The notes under the pieces: model-generated
Database searches by the model: none
Told to the model about the DNA's origin: nothing
What the model saw: only the letters and a program-made list of their open reading frames with translations
Program-made: the position numbers and the translations under genes
Source of the DNA: Allonocardiopsis opalescens
GTDB taxonomy: Bacteria; Actinomycetota; Actinomycetes; Streptosporangiales; Streptosporangiaceae
DNA length: 64,000 bases
Assembly: GCF_003002095.1 (NCBI RefSeq)
Contig: NZ_PVZC01000001.1
Span: 806,001-870,000, forward strand
Direction: 5' to 3'
Shown here: positions 37,222 through 49,137 of the stretch, piece after piece
Layout of the letters: each line of letters opens with the position of its first letter
Position numbering within the stretch: the stretch's first letter is position 1

Positions 37222-37417
37222 ATTTTGGGACGAACCACGCCGCTCGACGGGCTGGAATCCGGACGGGAAAGGCGGTGCGGACAGGTAGGGTCATCTAACG
37301 CGGGCCTTGACGCGTCCAACTGGTGAAGATGGTGTCACCTCATGCAGAAGCGCGGTCCGCGCAGGCATCCGCGTCCGTCAGCCGACGCAGGACAGCTCCG
37401 CCGGGGGAATCCGAGTC

Positions 37418-40400
37418 TTGAGTGCGAACGAGAACAGTGCCGGTCCCGACCCGCGTGACGGCGCCGCGGGGCGTGGCGAACCGAGTGCCGACGGCAGCGG
37501 GCGCGACCTCGGCTGGTTCAGCAGGCCGGCCAAGAGCGACGGCGGCGCCCCCGACGCCGGCGGCCTGACGCCCGAGCCCGAGCCTGCCGCAGGCCGGGAA
37601 CCCGACGACGCGGACGAGCGAGGCCCCGCGACGCCCTTCGGCGCACCGGGCGCTGCCGGCGGGCCCGCCGACCGCGGCTCCGCCGAGGACGGCGCCGAGG
37701 GCGCCCCGCCGCGCTGGGACCCCTCCGCCGGGTCCGGCGACGGCTGGAGCGCGTCCACTCCGTTCGGCGGATCCGGCGCTCCGGCCGATGGCGGCGCGGA
37801 CCCGGATCCGCGGGCCTCCGGCTCCGACGACGCGGCCGCGGACTCCGGCGGGACGCCCGCCGCCCCCGAGGAGGACGGCGGCGAGGCCGGCCTGGCCCTC
37901 GGCGACTTCGACGCCCGCGCCGACGGCGCCGCGGGCAACGGCGCGGGCCCGGCGCCCGGCACCGCCAACGGCTCCCACGGGCACGGGCCGGACGCCGGCG
38001 AGCCCGCCGCCGATCCGAGCGCCGGCTGGTCGGTCCCGGCGGACGATGACGACGCCGACCTGGTGGCCGAGCACTTCGATCCCCGCTCCGACGCGGAGCC
38101 GCTGGACGACGGCGCCGACTGGAGCGGCTCCGGGACGCCCTGGGGCGGCGCCGATCAGGCCGACGACTCCGGCGCCCGCTCCGACGCCGGTCCGTTCGAG
38201 CACGGCGAGGACCCGGGCGCGGACCGCTCCGGCGCCGACCCGTCGCCGATTCCGCTTGAGGTGTCCGACGGTGATGACGCGGCCGCCCGCCCGGACGCCG
38301 CCTGGGACGCGCCGGCCCCGCCCGCCGCCTCGGACGGCCTCGCGGACGCCGGTGCGGACCCGGTCGTCGGCACCGGTTCGGTGTGGGCGTCGCCGGCTCC
38401 GCTGGAGGCGTCCGACGACGACGGCGCGGAGGCGCGTCCGAGCCCGGCCTGGGAGGCGCCGGCTCCGAGCGCCGCGGCCACGGCCGCCGAGAACGCCGAC
38501 GCCGACACCACCGACGCCGAGCGCCCCGGTTCGGCGTGGGCGTCGTCCGCGCCGATGGACGGCTCCGACGATGGCGACGCGGACATCCGGCCGGGCTCCG
38601 CCTGGGACGCGTCCGCGCCGTCCAACGCCGGGGAGCCGGCCGGGTACGGCGCCTTCGGCGGCCCTGAGGCGGACGAGCCCGCCGCGGAGTGGGGCGCGTC
38701 GAAGCCCTTCCGGATCCCGGGCGACCTCGAGCCCGAGCCCGACGACGCCGACGAGCCCGGCGCCGCGGCCGCGGGCCAGGGCTACGGCGCCTTCGGCAGC
38801 GGGGCGGACGAGCCCGACGCCGACGACTTCGGCACCCGCACCCGGGCGCGGACGCCCTTCGGCCCGGCGGGCGTCGAGGGCTACACGGCCGGAGCCGTCG
38901 ACGACGGCGACCGCACCGCCGGAACCCCGGACGGCGACACCTCTGGCACCGACGCCGGCGACCGCGCCGAGACCCCCGTGGCGGCCGCGGCCGCCGCGGC
39001 GGCCGGCGGCGAGCCGCCGGTCACCCCGCGCTCGCCCGACGACCCTCGGCTCTCCGACACCGGCCCCAACCGGCCGATGCGCCCCGGCGGCGGCCCGCCG
39101 GAGCCGCCCGGCGACGACGCGGACGCCGCCTCGGGCGGCGGTGGCGACCGTCCCCGGCGGCCCAGGCGGCACCGGCCGCTGGCCGCCAGGATCGGCATCT
39201 GGGCCGCCAGCCTGGTGGGGGCGGTGATGGTGGCGGGCCTGGCAGCCTTCGGCGTCGCCTACGCCGCCATCGACGTGCCCGACGCCGTGCAGCCCTCCGC
39301 CGAGTACGAGGGCTCCGTCTTCTACTACCGCGACGGCGAGACCGTGCTGGCCCGCCAGGGCATCGACCGCCGCCCGGTGAGCCTGGACGAGGTGCCCGAG
39401 CACGTCCGCAACGCCGTGCTGTCCGCCGAGAACCGCGACTTCTACAGCGAGCCGGGCGTGTCCGTCACCGGCACGATGCGGGCACTGTGGTCCACCGTCA
39501 CCGGCGAGCAGGTGCAGGGCGGCTCCACCATCACCCAGCAGATGGTGCGCAACTACTACGAGGGCCTGAGCCAGGAGCAGACGGTCCAGCGCAAGCTGGC
39601 CGAGATCGTCATCGCGATCAAGGTCGACCAGGAGCGCACCAAGGACTGGATCCTGGAGCGCTACCTCAACACGATCTACTTCGGCCGGGGCGCCTACGGC
39701 ATCGAGGCGGCGGCGCACGCCTACTTCGGCAAGGGCGTCGGTGAGCTGACCCCCGACGAGTCGGCCTTCCTGGCCGCCGCCATCCAGCAGCCCACCGCCT
39801 TCGGCGAGGCCGACGAGAGTCACCTGCCGGCCGAGGAGGCCCGCTGGCGCTATGTGGTCGACGGCCTGGTCACCATGGGCTCGGTCACCCAGGCGGAGGC
39901 GGCGGCGATGGAGTTCCCGCTGCCCCAGGAGCAGGAGCCGCTGGTCGACCTGGGCGGGCAGACCGGGTACATGTGGCAGCAGGCCCTCAGCGAGCTGGAG
40001 CAGCGCGGCTACACCGAGGACGACATCAACCGCGGCGGCTACGAGATCGTCACCACCTTCGACCAGGACATGATGGCCTCCGCCGAGGAGGCGGTGCGGG
40101 AGGTGCTGCCCGAGGGCACCTCCGAGGAGGTCCTGGTGGGCGTCGCCTCGGTGGAGCCGGGCACCGGCGAGGTCTGGGCCTTCTACGGCGGCCGCGACTA
40201 CGAGCAGGACCAGTTCGACACCGCCTTCCGCGGCAGCGCCCAGGTCGGCTCCAGCTTCAAGCCCTACGTGCTGGCCGAGGCGCTGGAGCAGGGCTTCAGC
40301 CTGAACAGCTTCATGAACGCCAGCTCGCCCCAGGTCTTCAACGGCAGCCCGGTGGAGAACTACGGCGGCACCAGCTACGGCAACGTCTCCCTGCTCCAGG

Positions 40401-41266
40401 GCACGGTGAACTCGGTGAACACCGGCTACATCCAGCTGGCGGTCGAGGCCGGGCTGGCCGACGTCGTGGAGATGGCCGAGCGCGCGGGCATCCCGGCGCA
40501 GCGGCTGGAGCCGCACGCCGAGGCGCCCACCCTGGCGCTGGGGGTGGCGTCGATGACCCCGGTCGAGCAGGCCGGCGGCTTCGCCACCTTCGCCTCCGGC
40601 GGTGTGCAGTACGACCCCCACGTCATCCGCTCGATCACCGACCGCTCCGGGCAGACCGAGGAAATCAGGGTCGAGGGCGAGCGGGCGATGGACGAGGGCG
40701 TGGCCGCCGACACCACCTACGCGCTCACCCAGGTGGTGCAGCGCGGCACCGGCACCGGCGCGGCGCTGCCCGACGGGCGCCCGGTGGCCGGCAAGACCGG
40801 CACCACCGACAGCAGCGCGGCGGTCTGGTTCGTCGGCTACACCCCGCAGCTGTCCACCGCCGTCGCGATCTACCAGCGCGACAACCAGGAGATCACCGGC
40901 ATCCCCGGCTACTACAGCCTCACCGGCGGCACCCTGCCCGCCGACGTCTTCCGCACCTACATGACCGCCGCCATGGACGGCCAGGAGGTGGAGAGCTTCC
41001 CCGAACCGGTCTGGGGCGGCGGCGACCGCTCGCTGGCGCCGGCGCCCGCGCCGACCACCCAGGCGCCCGCGCCGGACGACGGCACCGTGCCCGAGCCGGA
41101 CCCCGGCACCACCGACCCCGGCCCGGTGGAGCCCGAGCCCGAGCCCAGCATCCCGACCGAGCCCGACCCCGGGTCCCCGACCACGGAGCCGGGTCCCGAC
41201 CCGGAGCCGACCGGCGAGCCGCCCATCTGGCCGCCCGACGACGGCGCCCGCCGGGAGGACCAGTAG
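37418..41266 (+). CDS. Bifunctional class A penicillin-binding protein with a 590-residue disordered N-terminus
   Basis: This enzyme polymerises and cross-links peptidoglycan. From a TTG start (SD GGGGGA nine bases away; MSANENSAGPDPRDG) it is 1282 residues, against 700-900 for typical actinobacterial class A PBPs. Residues 1-590 are cytosolic, acidic and low-complexity, with about 50-residue repeats. A membrane helix spans about 592-616. The GT51 domain has Glu671 (SAENRDFY) and GGSTITQQMVRNYY. The transpeptidase has SSFK (Ser945), SVN (999-1001) and KTGT (1126-1129). A Pro/Glu/Thr tail ends the protein. Other starts upstream cannot be excluded. Confidence 0.9.
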   Translation: MSANENSAGPDPRDGAAGRGEPSADGSGRDLGWFSRPAKSDGGAPDAGGLTPEPEPAAGREPDDADERGPATPFGAPGAAGGPADRGSAEDGAEGAPPRWDPSAGSGDGWSASTPFGGSGAPADGGADPDPRASGSDDAAADSGGTPAAPEEDGGEAGLALGDFDARADGAAGNGAGPAPGTANGSHGHGPDAGEPAADPSAGWSVPADDDDADLVAEHFDPRSDAEPLDDGADWSGSGTPWGGADQADDSGARSDAGPFEHGEDPGADRSGADPSPIPLEVSDGDDAAARPDAAWDAPAPPAASDGLADAGADPVVGTGSVWASPAPLEASDDDGAEARPSPAWEAPAPSAAATAAENADADTTDAERPGSAWASSAPMDGSDDGDADIRPGSAWDASAPSNAGEPAGYGAFGGPEADEPAAEWGASKPFRIPGDLEPEPDDADEPGAAAAGQGYGAFGSGADEPDADDFGTRTRARTPFGPAGVEGYTAGAVDDGDRTAGTPDGDTSGTDAGDRAETPVAAAAAAAAGGEPPVTPRSPDDPRLSDTGPNRPMRPGGGPPEPPGDDADAASGGGGDRPRRPRRHRPLAARIGIWAASLVGAVMVAGLAAFGVAYAAIDVPDAVQPSAEYEGSVFYYRDGETVLARQGIDRRPVSLDEVPEHVRNAVLSAENRDFYSEPGVSVTGTMRALWSTVTGEQVQGGSTITQQMVRNYYEGLSQEQTVQRKLAEIVIAIKVDQERTKDWILERYLNTIYFGRGAYGIEAAAHAYFGKGVGELTPDESAFLAAAIQQPTAFGEADESHLPAEEARWRYVVDGLVTMGSVTQAEAAAMEFPLPQEQEPLVDLGGQTGYMWQQALSELEQRGYTEDDINRGGYEIVTTFDQDMMASAEEAVREVLPEGTSEEVLVGVASVEPGTGEVWAFYGGRDYEQDQFDTAFRGSAQVGSSFKPYVLAEALEQGFSLNSFMNASSPQVFNGSPVENYGGTSYGNVSLLQGTVNSVNTGYIQLAVEAGLADVVEMAERAGIPAQRLEPHAEAPTLALGVASMTPVEQAGGFATFASGGVQYDPHVIRSITDRSGQTEEIRVEGERAMDEGVAADTTYALTQVVQRGTGTGAALPDGRPVAGKTGTTDSSAAVWFVGYTPQLSTAVAIYQRDNQEITGIPGYYSLTGGTLPADVFRTYMTAAMDGQEVESFPEPVWGGGDRSLAPAPAPTTQAPAPDDGTVPEPDPGTTDPGPVEPEPEPSIPTEPDPGSPTTEPGPDPEPTGEPPIWPPDDGARREDQ
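38252..38640 (+). repeat. In-frame degenerate tandem repeats in the PBP gene
   Basis: Three units of about 147-153 bp begin at 38252, 38399 and 38552. Each encodes P-(L/M)-(E/D)-x-SD-acidic-x-RP-xx-AW-(D/E)-A-x-AP, followed by an Ala/Asp-rich spacer. They lie in the cytosolic region and are divergent in sequence, so probably old. Confidence 0.7.
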
Positions 41267-44456: not shown

Positions 44457-44954
44457 CGCCGCCTCACCCGGCCAGATCCGGTCCGGCCGACAGGTTCCCG
44501 CGCACGAACCACCCCTCTTCGCCCCATGGCGCGCGCTCGGCCGGACGGTGCGGACATTCCGGTTGCCGCGCTGATGAAGACTGACCTTAGCCGACCTGTG
44601 CGCCGCCGATCCGATCCGCTCGCCGCCGCGGGCGGCGCCGGCCGGGCCGGCGCGCGAGCGGGCCGAACAAGATTCTAGTTTTCGGCGCCCCCGGCGCGGA
44701 CGCCCGGGGCCGCCCGCGCCGCGCACCGGCGGCCGCGTGCGGCTCGAACTAGAACATGTTCCACTGGGCTCGGTGTGCCGAATATGGTGCTTTCTCTACG
44801 TAAGAGTCACCTCGGCGCAGGCGTTCGAGAACGCGTGCCAGGATAAGCTGGCCCTGACGCGGACGGGGCCGCGCCTGGTGCACGACCTGTTTTGCCGCCC
44901 GGGCCGGTCCGAAGGACGCGATCGGCGCCAGTGGAGACCCGAGGGGGCACGACG
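44457..44954. other. Divergent control region between the glycosyltransferase run and the TetR gene
   Basis: 498 bp. It holds the KstR-type box at 44750-44763, a partial box GAGAACGCGTGCCA at 44827-44840, and an imperfect dyad (GCCGAA at 44662-44667 and TTCGGC at 44681-44686) around a minus-strand TAGAAT. No gene was accepted here. Confidence 0.55.
44750..44763. promoter_or_regulatory. KstR-type operator
   Basis: TAGAACATGTTCCA fits the mycobacterial KstR consensus TNNAACNNGTTNNA at every fixed base, 192 bp upstream of a KstR-like TetR gene. Confidence 0.7.
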
Positions 44955-45545
44955 GTGAGCGGTCCTGCGGTGGAGTTGCGGCCTCGCGACACCCGGGGCC
45001 AGCACGAGCGCAGGCGGCGCATCGTGCAGGCCGCGGCCGCCCTCGCCTCGCGCGGCGGCGTGGAGAACATGCAGATGCGCACCGTCGCCAAGCGCGCCGC
45101 CGTCGCGATCGGCACCCTCTACCGGTACTTCCCCTCCAAGATGCACCTGCTGGCGGCGGTCGCCTCCGAGGAGCTGGCGCTGCTCGAGGAGGGCATCCGG
45201 CGCCGCCCGCCCCAGGCGGGCGACCCCGCCGGGCAGGTGGTCGAGGTGCTGATGCGGGCGGCGCGCGGGCTGATGCGCGAACCCGAACTGGCCGACGCGG
45301 TGGTGCGCTCGCTGCTGGCCGCCGGGCCGGAGACCGACATCGGCGCCGGGGTGAGCCGGCTGGTGCTGCGCGTCTCGGCCGGGCCCGGCGGCGGGCCGGC
45401 CGAGCCCGACCACGCCGAGCTCGTGCTGGCCGACTCCCTGGCCGGGGTGTGGGTGATGGAGCTGGCCGAGGTGCTCAGGGGCCGGCGCACGCTCGACCAG
45501 GCGCAGCTCCGCCTGGAGATCACCGCGCGCCGCCTGCTCGGCTGA
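44955..45545 (+). CDS. KstR-like TetR-family regulator
   Basis: The 196-residue protein has an N-terminal TetR HTH: HERRRRIVQAAAALASRGG, VENMQMRTVAKRAAVAIGTLYRYFPSK (cited in two parts) and HLLAAVASEELALLEEG. VQMR-like MQMRTVA and GTLYRYFPSK(M/V)HLL are close to mycobacterial KstR, the 3-oxo-cholestenoyl-CoA-responsive repressor of sterol catabolism. The ligand domain ends in AQLRLEITARRLLG. The GTG has GAGGGGG about 12 bases upstream. The matching box in its own upstream region supports autoregulation and control of the divergent glycosyltransferase run; ligand unknown. Confidence 0.87.
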   Translation: MSGPAVELRPRDTRGQHERRRRIVQAAAALASRGGVENMQMRTVAKRAAVAIGTLYRYFPSKMHLLAAVASEELALLEEGIRRRPPQAGDPAGQVVEVLMRAARGLMREPELADAVVRSLLAAGPETDIGAGVSRLVLRVSAGPGGGPAEPDHAELVLADSLAGVWVMELAEVLRGRRTLDQAQLRLEITARRLLG

Positions 45546-45553
45546 GCCGCGCC

Positions 45554-46948
45554 CTAGGGCTCGGAGCGGTCGCCCATCAGGCCGCCGAGCAGGCCGTCCA
45601 GGATGTCCTCGAAGACGCCGCCGCCGTCGTCATCGGGCTCGGAGCTGCCCGAGGGGTCGGGTTCCGGGCTGGTGGAGCCGGAGTCCTCGGCCGAGGGCTC
45701 CGACGGCGTCTGCGGCTCCTCGGCCGCGGTGGTCCGCACCTCCGCGACCGGCGCCTCCTCGCCCGCGCCGCCCTCGCCCGCGCCGGGGTCGCCGAGCGGC
45801 TGCGGCTGCTCGGGGCCTGGCGGCGCGGAGGCCGGTTCGGAGGAGGGGGCGGAGGTGGCCGACACGCGGTCGGGCCCCTCGCCGATGTCCTCGGCCACCG
45901 CGCTGCTCGGTGAGTCGTCGCTGAACAGCGCGCTGGCGCCCCAGATGCCCAGGGCCGCGACCACGGTGAGCAGCCCGGCGGCCGCCGGAGCCGTCCAGCG
46001 GCCGCGGCGCGGGGGCGGGGCGGCGTAGCGGTCGTCGTCGGGGTCGCCGCCGAGGTCGGGCGGCTCGGCGCCCTCGGCGGCGAGCCAGGGGTCGGCATCG
46101 AGGTCGCCGGGCGCCGGGACCACCGGCACGGCGGGGAGGTCGCCGGTGTCGGCGGCCTCCTCCGGCAGCGGCGGCTCGGTGCGGTCCAGGTGCAGCGGGA
46201 AGCCGTCGGGGCCCAGCGGGCGCACCCGCTCGGCCGCGGCGGCGCGCTCGGCGGCGTGCCCGGCGTCGTTGCTGGCCAGCAGCACCAGCGAGCGCAGCGC
46301 CCGGGGCGGCCGCGGCGGCGGCAGCAGGTCGAGCAGGCCGACGATGTCGTCCAGGCGGTCGGGGTCGGGCTCGCTGAGGAGGTCGGCCTCGGCCAGCCCG
46401 GGGAAGCCGCCGGCCTTCAGCTCGCGCGAGACGCGCCGCAGCGCGGCCGCGGCGAGGCGGTCGGCGGTCTCGGCGGGCAGCCCGAGCACCTTGCCGAGCT
46501 GCTCGCCGGCCAGGCGGTGGCGGGCGGAGAGCTCGAGCACGTCGCGGTCGCTGGGGGAGAGCACCGACAGCGCCCGCACCAGCGGGCGCTCGGCCGCGAT
46601 CGTGGCCAGCCCGGCGTAGGGCGAGCGCTCGGCGAAGCCGCGGCGCAGGCAGGCGGTGCGGGCCAGCGCGAACAGCCACGGCCGCAGCATGGTCTGGTCG
46701 CCGAGCCGGCCGATATGGCCGACGGCGGCCAGGAAGGTCTCGCGCAGCGCCGAGGAGGCGCCGTCGAGCTGGTCGCCGTCGATGGCGGCGAAGTGGCTGG
46801 GGCCGAGCATGGCCCAGCAGTACCGGTAGATCTGGGACCCGAACTTGTCGTACAGGTCCTCGTGGCCGTGGTCGTCGCGCAGGTGCTCCACCAGCCACGC
46901 GCCGGTGGTCGCCGCGGCGCCGTCCCCGTTCTCGTCGTTCGTGGACAC
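45554..46948 (-). CDS. Sigma-70-family protein with C-terminal membrane anchor and extracytoplasmic tail
   Basis: Residues about 30-175 resemble an ECF sigma factor: DLYDKFGSQIYRYCWAMLG and RPWLFALARTACLRR for region 2, and LSPSDRDVLELSARHRLAGEQLGKVLGL with AAALRRVSRELK for region 4. Then follow about 130 residues of linker, a single hydrophobic helix WTAPAAAGLLTVVAALGIWG (about 318-337), and a Ser/Pro/Glu-rich tail ending in a leucine/glycine helix. Anti-sigma domains usually carry such anchors; a sigma domain fused to one is rare. It might be a sequestered sigma released by proteolysis, or a non-sigma regulator of the same fold. Start by ATG at 46948 without a strong SD. Confidence 0.75.
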   Translation of the reverse strand: MSTNDENGDGAAATTGAWLVEHLRDDHGHEDLYDKFGSQIYRYCWAMLGPSHFAAIDGDQLDGASSALRETFLAAVGHIGRLGDQTMLRPWLFALARTACLRRGFAERSPYAGLATIAAERPLVRALSVLSPSDRDVLELSARHRLAGEQLGKVLGLPAETADRLAAAALRRVSRELKAGGFPGLAEADLLSEPDPDRLDDIVGLLDLLPPPRPPRALRSLVLLASNDAGHAAERAAAAERVRPLGPDGFPLHLDRTEPPLPEEAADTGDLPAVPVVPAPGDLDADPWLAAEGAEPPDLGGDPDDDRYAAPPPRRGRWTAPAAAGLLTVVAALGIWGASALFSDDSPSSAVAEDIGEGPDRVSATSAPSSEPASAPPGPEQPQPLGDPGAGEGGAGEEAPVAEVRTTAAEEPQTPSEPSAEDSGSTSPEPDPSGSSEPDDDGGGVFEDILDGLLGGLMGDRSEP

Positions 46949-47239: not shown

Positions 47240-48292
<1,053 letters not shown>

Positions 48293-48392
48293 GGCCGGCC
48301 TCCGCGGGCTGTGCTCGTCCGGCCGCCGGGCGGAGGCGGGCGGGGGCGCCCGGATTTCTCCTGCCGTTCGACGGCCGTTCCTCGTCTCAGAT

Positions 48393-48415
48393 GTTTTCGA
48401 CTTCTGGTCGAAAAC
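48393..48415. promoter_or_regulatory. NrtR-type operator between nadA and nrtR
   Basis: GTTTTCGAC-TTCTG-GTCGAAAAC is a perfect inverted repeat with 9-bp arms in the nadA/nrtR spacer. It overlaps the expected -35 region of nrtR and lies 101 bp before nadA. Its position beside nrtR and nadA makes it the probable NrtR box. Confidence 0.8.
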
Positions 48416-48426
48416 CCAGCGTACCC

Positions 48427-48432
48427 TAACAT
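48427..48432 (+). promoter_or_regulatory. Leaderless -10 element of nrtR
   Basis: TAACAT, six bases before the GTG at 48439. Confidence 0.55.
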
Positions 48433-48438
48433 ACGGGT

Positions 48439-49137
48439 GTGCTGGTGGAGGGGATGGGCCACGAGGTGCTGGCCGTCGTGCTGCAGGTGCGTGACCACGT
48501 CCTGTCGGTGCTGCTGTGGCAGAGAGCACGGCCGCCGTACGAGGGCGGCTGGGCGCTGCCCGGCGGCGCGCTGGGCGTCGCCGAGGGGCTGGGGCCGTCC
48601 ATCAGGCGCCAGCTCAAGCAGAAGGTGGACGTGCGCGAGCTCACCCACCTGGAGCAGCTGGAGACGCGCGGCGCCCCCGACCGCCACCCGCTCACCCGGG
48701 TGCTGGCCACCGCCTACCTGGGCCTGATCCCGGCCGGCGTCGACCCGCTGACCCCCGAGGACACCCGCTGGCACCCGGCCGACCGGCTGCCCGACATGGC
48801 CTTCGACCATGCCGAGCTGGTCGACTCCGGCCGCCGGCGGCTGCGCTCCAAGCTCTCCTACACCAATATCGGCTTCGCGCTCGCCCCGCCCGTCTTCACC
48901 CTGTCGGAGCTGACCGACTACTACCGCGCCGCGCTGGGCTACGAGGTCTCGGCCACCAACCTGCAGCGGGTGCTGCTGCGCCGCGGCCAGATCCAACCCA
49001 CCGGCGCCTCGGCGCCGCCGGGGCGCTATGGTGGCCGACCGGCCGCGCTCTACCGCTTCCGGGTGCGCGAGCTGGAGGTCACCGACGCGTTCGCGGTGCT
49101 GCGCCCGCCCGGGCGGATCGCGCCGCAGGTGGGCTGA
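48439..49137 (+). CDS. nrtR: NrtR, Nudix-type regulator of NAD synthesis
   Basis: NrtR proteins join a Nudix-fold sensor of ADP-ribose to a winged helix and repress NAD genes. The 232-residue protein has an N-terminal Nudix domain with [18 protein letters not shown]; the canonical REUXEEXGU part reads [10 protein letters not shown], so the metal-binding glutamates are gone and hydrolysis is unlikely. The C-terminal half ([47 protein letters not shown]) is the NrtR winged helix. It is divergent from nadA over a perfect palindrome. The GTG at 48439 follows TAACAT by six bases. Confidence 0.92.

Follow-up and report, generated by a model that had tools for sequence, protein, structure and literature searches.

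A membrane-anchored protein with a predicted sigma-factor fold, an apparently lost zinc-finger segment and largely eroded polymerase contacts next to nadA of Allonocardiopsis opalescens

The window, i.e. the whole stretch of 64,000 nucleotides that was analyzed (Allonocardiopsis opalescens, contig NZ_PVZC01000001.1, positions 806,001 to 870,000), harbors an open reading frame between nadA and a convergent gene for a TetR-type regulator. An initial annotation had described its product as a sigma-like protein tethered to the membrane by its own C-terminal helix. The features of the locus are listed in Table 1.

Table 1. The sigma-like gene, its parts and its neighbors; positions refer to the window.
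Feature	Residues	Position	Strand	Basis
Whole gene, GTG start	464 aa	45554..46948	-	ORF, synteny, dN/dS
nadA (quinolinate synthase), conserved upstream neighbor		47240..48451	-	Pfam, synteny
TetR-type regulator, conserved convergent neighbor		44892..45545	+	Pfam; present in 15 of 17 nadA loci
Sigma2-like domain	9-103	46640..46924	-	AlphaFold helices, fold matches; TIGR02937 30-176
Sigma4-like domain, recognition helix without the usual basic residues	110-179	46412..46621	-	AlphaFold, fold matches, alignment; sub-threshold Pfam Sigma70_r4 126-173
Site of the zinc-finger segment of relatives (four ligands), absent here	181-195	46364..46408	-	Alignment
Retained helical module ending G249-F250-P251	196-253	46190..46363	-	Block pLDDT 91-98 for 201-250; conserved family-wide
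Variable linker	254-319	45992..46189	-	Low pLDDT, low identity
Membrane helix	324-342	45923..45979	-	AlphaFold and sequence
Pro/Ser/Gly/Glu-rich outer tail	343-445	45614..45922	-	Composition
C-terminal helix, low-confidence prediction	446-457	45578..45613	-	AlphaFold

When the window protein alone served as query, a scan found no relative. The scan of species genomes with an alignment was evaluated for the best 80 of 162 matches, corresponding to 78 distinct named loci. At 17 of these 78 loci the arrangement is that of the window, with nadA followed by the sigma-like gene in the same orientation; these loci belong to Marinitenerispora, Marinactinospora, Actinorugispora, Thermobifida, Allosalinactinospora, Murinocardiopsis, Streptomonospora, Nocardiopsis and two unclassified relatives. 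At the remaining 61 loci nadA was absent from the flanking DNA examined. Inspection of flanks revealed the nadA linkage in two more genomes (L122 and L123; L121 and L046 are one and the same contig). The Nocardiopsaceae branch considered below comprises 22 rows; nadA synteny was checked in 20 of them (the window, the 17 named loci, and L020 and L021 via L123 and L122), and L017 and L023 were assigned from the tree and the alignment alone.

Compared with the window, NadA of the 17 loci shows 73-85% identity and the sigma-like protein 34-45% over its matched part; identity to 13 relatives is 32-39%, and a match was found in 42 of 80 related genomes. Within the branch, mean pairwise identity is 0.57 for sigma2, 0.56 for sigma4, 0.51 for the module (residues 204-253), 0.41 for the membrane helix and 0.32 for the tail; the head is therefore the most conserved part of the protein. 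For four close branch pairs, dN/dS was 0.27-0.37 for head and module and 0.44-0.79 for the tail. Synteny with nadA and purifying selection rule out a chance frame: ORF 45554-46948 is real and lies where the initial annotation had placed it.

Upstream regions of the orthologues were searched with three loose patterns for an ECF-type promoter; one pattern matched 3 of 18 regions, the other two none. Apparently, these regions contain no convincing ECF-type motif. The best shared block pair occurs in 8 of 18 regions as compared to 3-5 in shuffled sequences; four Nocardiopsis regions are near-copies of each other, hence this comparison is no test. By eye, a CGCTA(G/A)CGT block and, after it, an inverted repeat of the type CCGGA-CAAC-TCC(G) are repeatedly seen 40-110 bases before the start, e.g. 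in the orthologues L041, L045, L050, L051 and L053, and in degenerate form in the window; the arrangement looks like a housekeeping -10 element with an operator. A gene for a partner anti-sigma factor was found nowhere among the scanned neighbors. Furthermore, nadA lies back to back with a gene for a NUDIX / NrtR-type winged-helix regulator (47240-49137), probably the NAD-synthesis regulator NrtR.

Sequence models recognize the head poorly. The Pfam Sigma70_r4 match reaches 20.4 bits, below the cut-off of 24.1; Sigma70_r2 gave no match in the window protein at E up to 10, and TIGR02937, the general ECF model of NCBIfam, scored 26.2 bits against a cut-off of 42.9. A Sigma70_r2 search of the whole genome found 36 places, the window gene not among them. 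A profile made from 14 branch members matched solved structures of BldN (E 1.4e-06) and SigL (E 9.3e-05), and also one PhyR sigma-like domain (E 0.0027). AlphaFold, run on 54 aligned family sequences and no templates, predicted the sigma2 and sigma4 helices at a block pLDDT of 92-98, except for residues 1-20 and the loop 51-60. The predicted model has the sigma2 and sigma4 fold of an ECF sigma factor, in agreement with the ECF-derived head proposed initially; its best Foldseek E-value was 0.0028, with no match at E 0.001 or better. Thus, the likeness to sigma factors is weak by sequence and clear by predicted fold.

In the predicted structure the two sigma domains adopt a closed pose. The best matches by VIA were SigW with RsiW (Z 13.6, rmsd 2.8 Å, 149 residues, both sigma domains) and CnrH with CnrY (Z 13.4, rmsd 2.5); over both domains the fit to SigW/RsiW, CnrH/CnrY and RpoE/NepR had an rmsd of 2.5-2.9 Å. 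SigG1, which carries a C-terminal domain instead of an anti-sigma factor, was fitted with Z 11.4 and an rmsd of 4.2. Polymerase-bound ECF chains aligned over both domains only at an rmsd of about 27 Å, SigK/RskA superposed at 9.1 Å, and for RpoE/RseA and AlgU/MucA the alignment covered sigma2 alone. The model thus resembles some anti-sigma complexes and not all. Such a closed pose is compatible with the sequestration that the initial annotation had read from the overall design. PhyR sigma-like domains were also among the fold matches (Z 9.9). PhyR uses a sigma fold to bind an anti-sigma factor; it also has a receiver domain and is not known to be membrane-bound. Unlike PhyR, the window protein gave no receiver domain among its Pfam matches at E up to 10.

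The region following sigma4 distinguishes the branch from its relatives. In an alignment of 54 rows, four ligand columns after sigma4 read C, H, C, C in all 30 zinc-bearing rows; zinc ligands are found at these columns in none of the 22 branch rows, nor in L059 and L102. Cys44 and Cys100 are the only cysteines of the window protein. Among the named loci from the best 80 of 162 relatives, the motif Hx3Cx2C occurs in the segment from sigma4 to the membrane helix at 58 of the 61 loci not linked to nadA and at 0 of the 17 nadA loci; in L089, one of the three exceptions, it is present with one extra residue. The zinc-binding Hx3Cx2C bundle typical of a class I anti-sigma domain is thus present in the zinc-bearing relatives and missing in the window branch. 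Pfam zf-HC2 at E up to 1 matched 10 of 15 zinc-bearing relatives as compared to 0 of 14 branch members. The median distance between H144 and P215 is 65 in the branch (range 49-101, with other insertions in the longest rows) as compared to 101 in the 32 remaining rows (range 60-106, the finger being absent from the shortest), i.e. the segment after sigma4 is about 36 residues shorter in the branch. L059 (Acrocarpospora) sits within the zinc-bearing clade, a separate loss of the segment. VIA on a zinc-bearing paralogue gave a listing filled by beta-sandwich matches, which says nothing on its finger. As judged from the alignments, the Nocardiopsaceae branch has lost the zinc-finger segment and kept the module that follows it.

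This module (residues 196-253), on which the initial annotation was silent, is predicted to be folded and to be positioned as helix 4 of a class I anti-sigma factor would be; G249 and P251 are invariant and F250 is conserved to at least 90% in the 54 aligned rows. From its order and position we infer that it is the end of a fused anti-sigma domain including helix 4. According to the available excerpts of PMC7406223, the binding site of helix 4 of class I anti-sigma domains is formed by regions 2.1/2.2, which serve mainly for clamp binding, and a zinc motif is lacking in some of these domains.

A single hydrophobic helix at about residues 320-342 and a tail composed of 16% P, 15% S, 15% G and 13% E bear out the membrane tether and the Ser/Pro/Glu-rich tail of the initial annotation. 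The net charge of the 15 residues before the helix is +3 and that of the 15 residues after it -5, which fits an N-inside topology and suggests that the head of the window protein faces the cytoplasm. In 20 branch proteins (L045 left out), the side before the helix is more positive in 14, less in 4 and equal in 2. The membrane helix was found in 20 of 21 branch proteins. The Allosalinactinospora orthologue (L045, 5989-7488) has no membrane helix, and its basic end reads like another frame, which points to a frameshift or a sequencing error. At the C-terminus, likewise passed over initially (residues 446-457), 18 of 21 branch tails show an amphipathic pattern as compared to 0.1 expected from shuffled tails, the pattern having been written post hoc; the tails of the window protein, L045 and L047 do not show it in its strict form.

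The residues at columns 66, 69 and 168, which we take to be key polymerase and -35 contacts, and which are backed here by conservation, were compared with those of 30 further ECF-type proteins encoded in this genome. Of the 36 Sigma70_r2 matches, 30 make up this set; four sigma factors of groups 1-3 (L001-L004), L124 and the family paralogue on C5 were dropped, and L148, later shown to be a family member, was kept. The window protein has S66, R69 and A168, and the comparison proteins D/E in 30 of 30, Q in 23 of 30 and R in 27 of 30. Hence, the core-binding signature of region 2.2 (acidic residue 66, Q69) is lacking, as is a basic -35 recognition helix with R168. None of the 30 comparison proteins lacks all three residues (D/E66, Q69, R168), as compared to 11 of the 22 rows of the branch and 65 of the 72 other rows of the family; all three are kept in 21 of the 30 comparison proteins and in 2 of the 72 other family rows. 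The other 11 branch rows retain the acidic residue 66 only. Position 69 alone is no test, since Q69 is missing in 7 of the 30 comparison proteins, too. Furthermore, the mean charge of the recognition helix is +3.5 in the comparison proteins, +0.6 in the branch and about 0 in the other family rows, the window protein having +1. The polymerase and -35 signature residues are therefore largely gone in the window protein and in most of the family, a loss the initial annotation had not recorded. It had, however, named missing residues for core binding or -10 melting as evidence against its sigma-like reading; this was largely found (S66, R69, A168 and the helix charge), but not wholly, as E70 and W91 are kept (W91 in 22 of 22 branch rows), and the region 2.4 helix is still basic, with +4 in the window protein as compared to a mean of +2.5 in the comparison proteins.

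A tree of 103 rows (141 columns, quick search; 30 rows, mostly near-copies from zinc-bearing clades, and 8 others were left out) places the window family on one side of a branch with a support of 99. An earlier tree placing the zinc-bearing clades rests on window residues 25-180, the window row being shortened. The family splits into groups of 15 rows (support 86) and 71 rows (support 94). The 15-row sister group mostly keeps the signature (D in 14 rows, Q in 8, R168 in 11); Q69 occurs in no row of the 71-row group. Two Streptomyces proteins with a sigma head, a zinc motif and a Pro-rich stretch (L196 and L198) were taken as SCO4117-type; they group, with a support of 99, with L134, an ECF of the window's own genome, and the window family lies across a branch of support 99. 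L134 (G000:C5:575746) is located in an open frame of 821 codons. The tree thus does not support an assignment of the window protein as an ECF52 orthologue. The Streptomyces noursei protein L114 was dropped as a candidate SCO4117 orthologue, its neighbors reading by eye like radA and disA, as do genes adjoining the Streptomyces family members. The TetR gene of the window was also rejected as a mark of the SCO4117/atrA locus, since the Streptomyces proteins most similar to its product (41-44% identity) are encoded away from the zinc-finger candidates.

Three more clear members are encoded in the genome of the window, one at C5:223669 and two in tandem at C8:421464 and C8:423019. The C5 member has an outer beta sandwich in its model and a weak BACON_2 match. 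In the tandem pair (G000:C8:421464-423480; L194, 5417-8195) the second copy is without Hx3Cx2C and gave no Pfam match at E 0.001. The genome to which the Thermobifida fusca locus L048 belongs contains another copy of the family (G040:C37:106331-107647), interrupted by four in-frame stops. At E up to 1e-8, with a mostly zinc-bearing alignment as query, 169 of 197 class-level genomes gave a match; since many of these are short frames of the kind usual for ordinary ECF factors, the number is no census.

The initial annotation had regarded tethering as normally belonging to anti-sigma factors. Self-tethering is an already known design, not new in kind: according to the accessible parts of PMC8999054, ECF48, ECF52 and ECF53 are fusions of a sigma factor, a zinc anti-sigma domain and a membrane part, expected to be freed by proteolysis, and IutY, the sole experimentally characterized fusion named there, is activated by proteolysis. 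SCO4117 (ECF52) has been studied genetically by knock-out and truncation; the truncated protein had effects, and attempts at overproduction failed (PMC5826349, in extract). The functions of ECF52 and ECF53 await experiments according to the portion of PMC10766802 at hand. Among open-licence papers, a search by title found none on membrane-tethered or pseudo-sigma factors of this kind.

Each of these systems resembles the window protein in part. ECF52 proteins such as SCO4117 consist of a sigma2-sigma4 head, a membrane helix and an outer part rich in Pro on a single polypeptide, but SCO4117-type proteins have a zinc finger and an outer carbohydrate-binding module (PMC5826349, in extract); the window protein has no zinc finger after sigma4, and the Streptomyces proteins taken as SCO4117-type fall outside its family. 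ECF48 and ECF53, compared by description, share a C-terminal zinc anti-sigma domain with membrane helices (PMC8999054, in extract), and the missing zinc ligands set the window branch apart from this description. IutY of Pseudomonas putida (ECF243) likewise joins a sigma and a membrane anti-sigma factor in one chain (same extract), but serves iron-uptake signaling with an outer-membrane receptor and is probably not close in sequence. The CnrH/CnrY and SigW/RsiW complexes, which the predicted closed pose matches best, each consist of two polypeptides, one sigma and one anti-sigma factor. The novel aspects are that the whole branch lacks the zinc segment but has kept the module, the post hoc C-terminal amphipathic pattern and the eroded sigma contacts in most family rows examined.

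With a probability that we put slightly short of even, the window protein is a self-inhibited, membrane-held sigma-fold protein that is probably no ordinary promoter-selecting sigma factor any more. An ECF sigma factor would have been fused to its own zinc-type, membrane-anchored anti-sigma factor, and the Nocardiopsaceae branch would then have lost the zinc-finger segment and kept the following module. The protein's own chain may keep the sigma-fold head closed and tied to the membrane, and an envelope signal may expose or release the head; a Pro/Ser-rich stalk and a short terminal helix would lie outside. As the polymerase and -35 signature residues are mostly gone, the head would most likely be a sigma-shaped binding module acting on another protein, e.g. 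an anti-sigma factor. Self-inhibition, envelope sensing and partner binding are the parts of this proposal that we infer. The missing ligands, the kept folded module, the closed pose, the lost signature, the lower helix charge and the PhyR matches speak for it; the acidic residue 66 in 11 of 22 branch rows, the retained E70, W91 and basic region 2.4, the misfit of SigK/RskA, RpoE/RseA and AlgU/MucA, the fit of SigG1 and the failure to find a partner anti-sigma gene among the scanned neighbors speak against it.

More tentatively, the protein may belong to a large actinobacterial family of membrane-anchored pseudo-sigma factors, which would have retained the sigma fold together with an outer sensor and a fused inhibitor, zinc-bearing or not, would have lost polymerase and promoter contacts, and would now act as membrane switches capturing or freeing regulators.

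A close rival, which we also consider a realistic possibility though a somewhat less likely one than the self-inhibited protein, is a divergent but working ECF sigma factor, held off by the remnant and the membrane, set free by proteolysis on an envelope signal and equipped with altered polymerase and promoter contacts. The design is that of ECF48, ECF52 and ECF53 and of the proven case IutY (PMC8999054, in extract), and truncated SCO4117 had effects (PMC5826349, in extract). Purifying selection on the head, the retained E70, W91 and basic region 2.4 helix, and a 15-row sister group that mostly retains the signature point in the same direction; the loss of signature residues and of recognition-helix charge, and upstream regions with no convincing ECF-type motif, point the other way.

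A structural or scaffold protein of the envelope whose sigma fold plays no part in regulation would account for the long low-complexity tail and the conserved membrane helix, but it is improbable given that conservation is highest in the sigma head (0.57 and 0.56 as compared to 0.32 in the tail). Still more improbable is a gene in decay: the fast divergence (32-39% identity to 13 relatives), L045 with its missing membrane helix and an end reading like another frame, and the G040 copy with its four stops would fit, but dN/dS of the head is 0.27-0.37, the membrane helix is present in 20 of 21 branch proteins, and the gene has been kept beside nadA across many genera. Chance resemblance of helical domains, suggested by Pfam scores below cut-off and the Foldseek result, is negligible in view of the SigW match across both domains (Z 13.6), the profile matches to BldN (E 1.4e-06) and SigL (E 9.3e-05) and the joining of the family to clear sigma-factor sequences.

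The loss of the zinc segment in the branch and of the signature in most family rows examined makes it directly testable whether such fusions have remained functional sigma factors. Should this not be the case, the term sigma factor would be a misnomer for a family that occurs in Streptomyces, Streptosporangiaceae and Nocardiopsaceae, and a role as membrane switch would add to the uses of the sigma fold.

Additionally, a bifunctional penicillin-binding protein is encoded at 37307-41266 of the window, with about 600 residues of acidic low-complexity sequence ahead of its catalytic domains.
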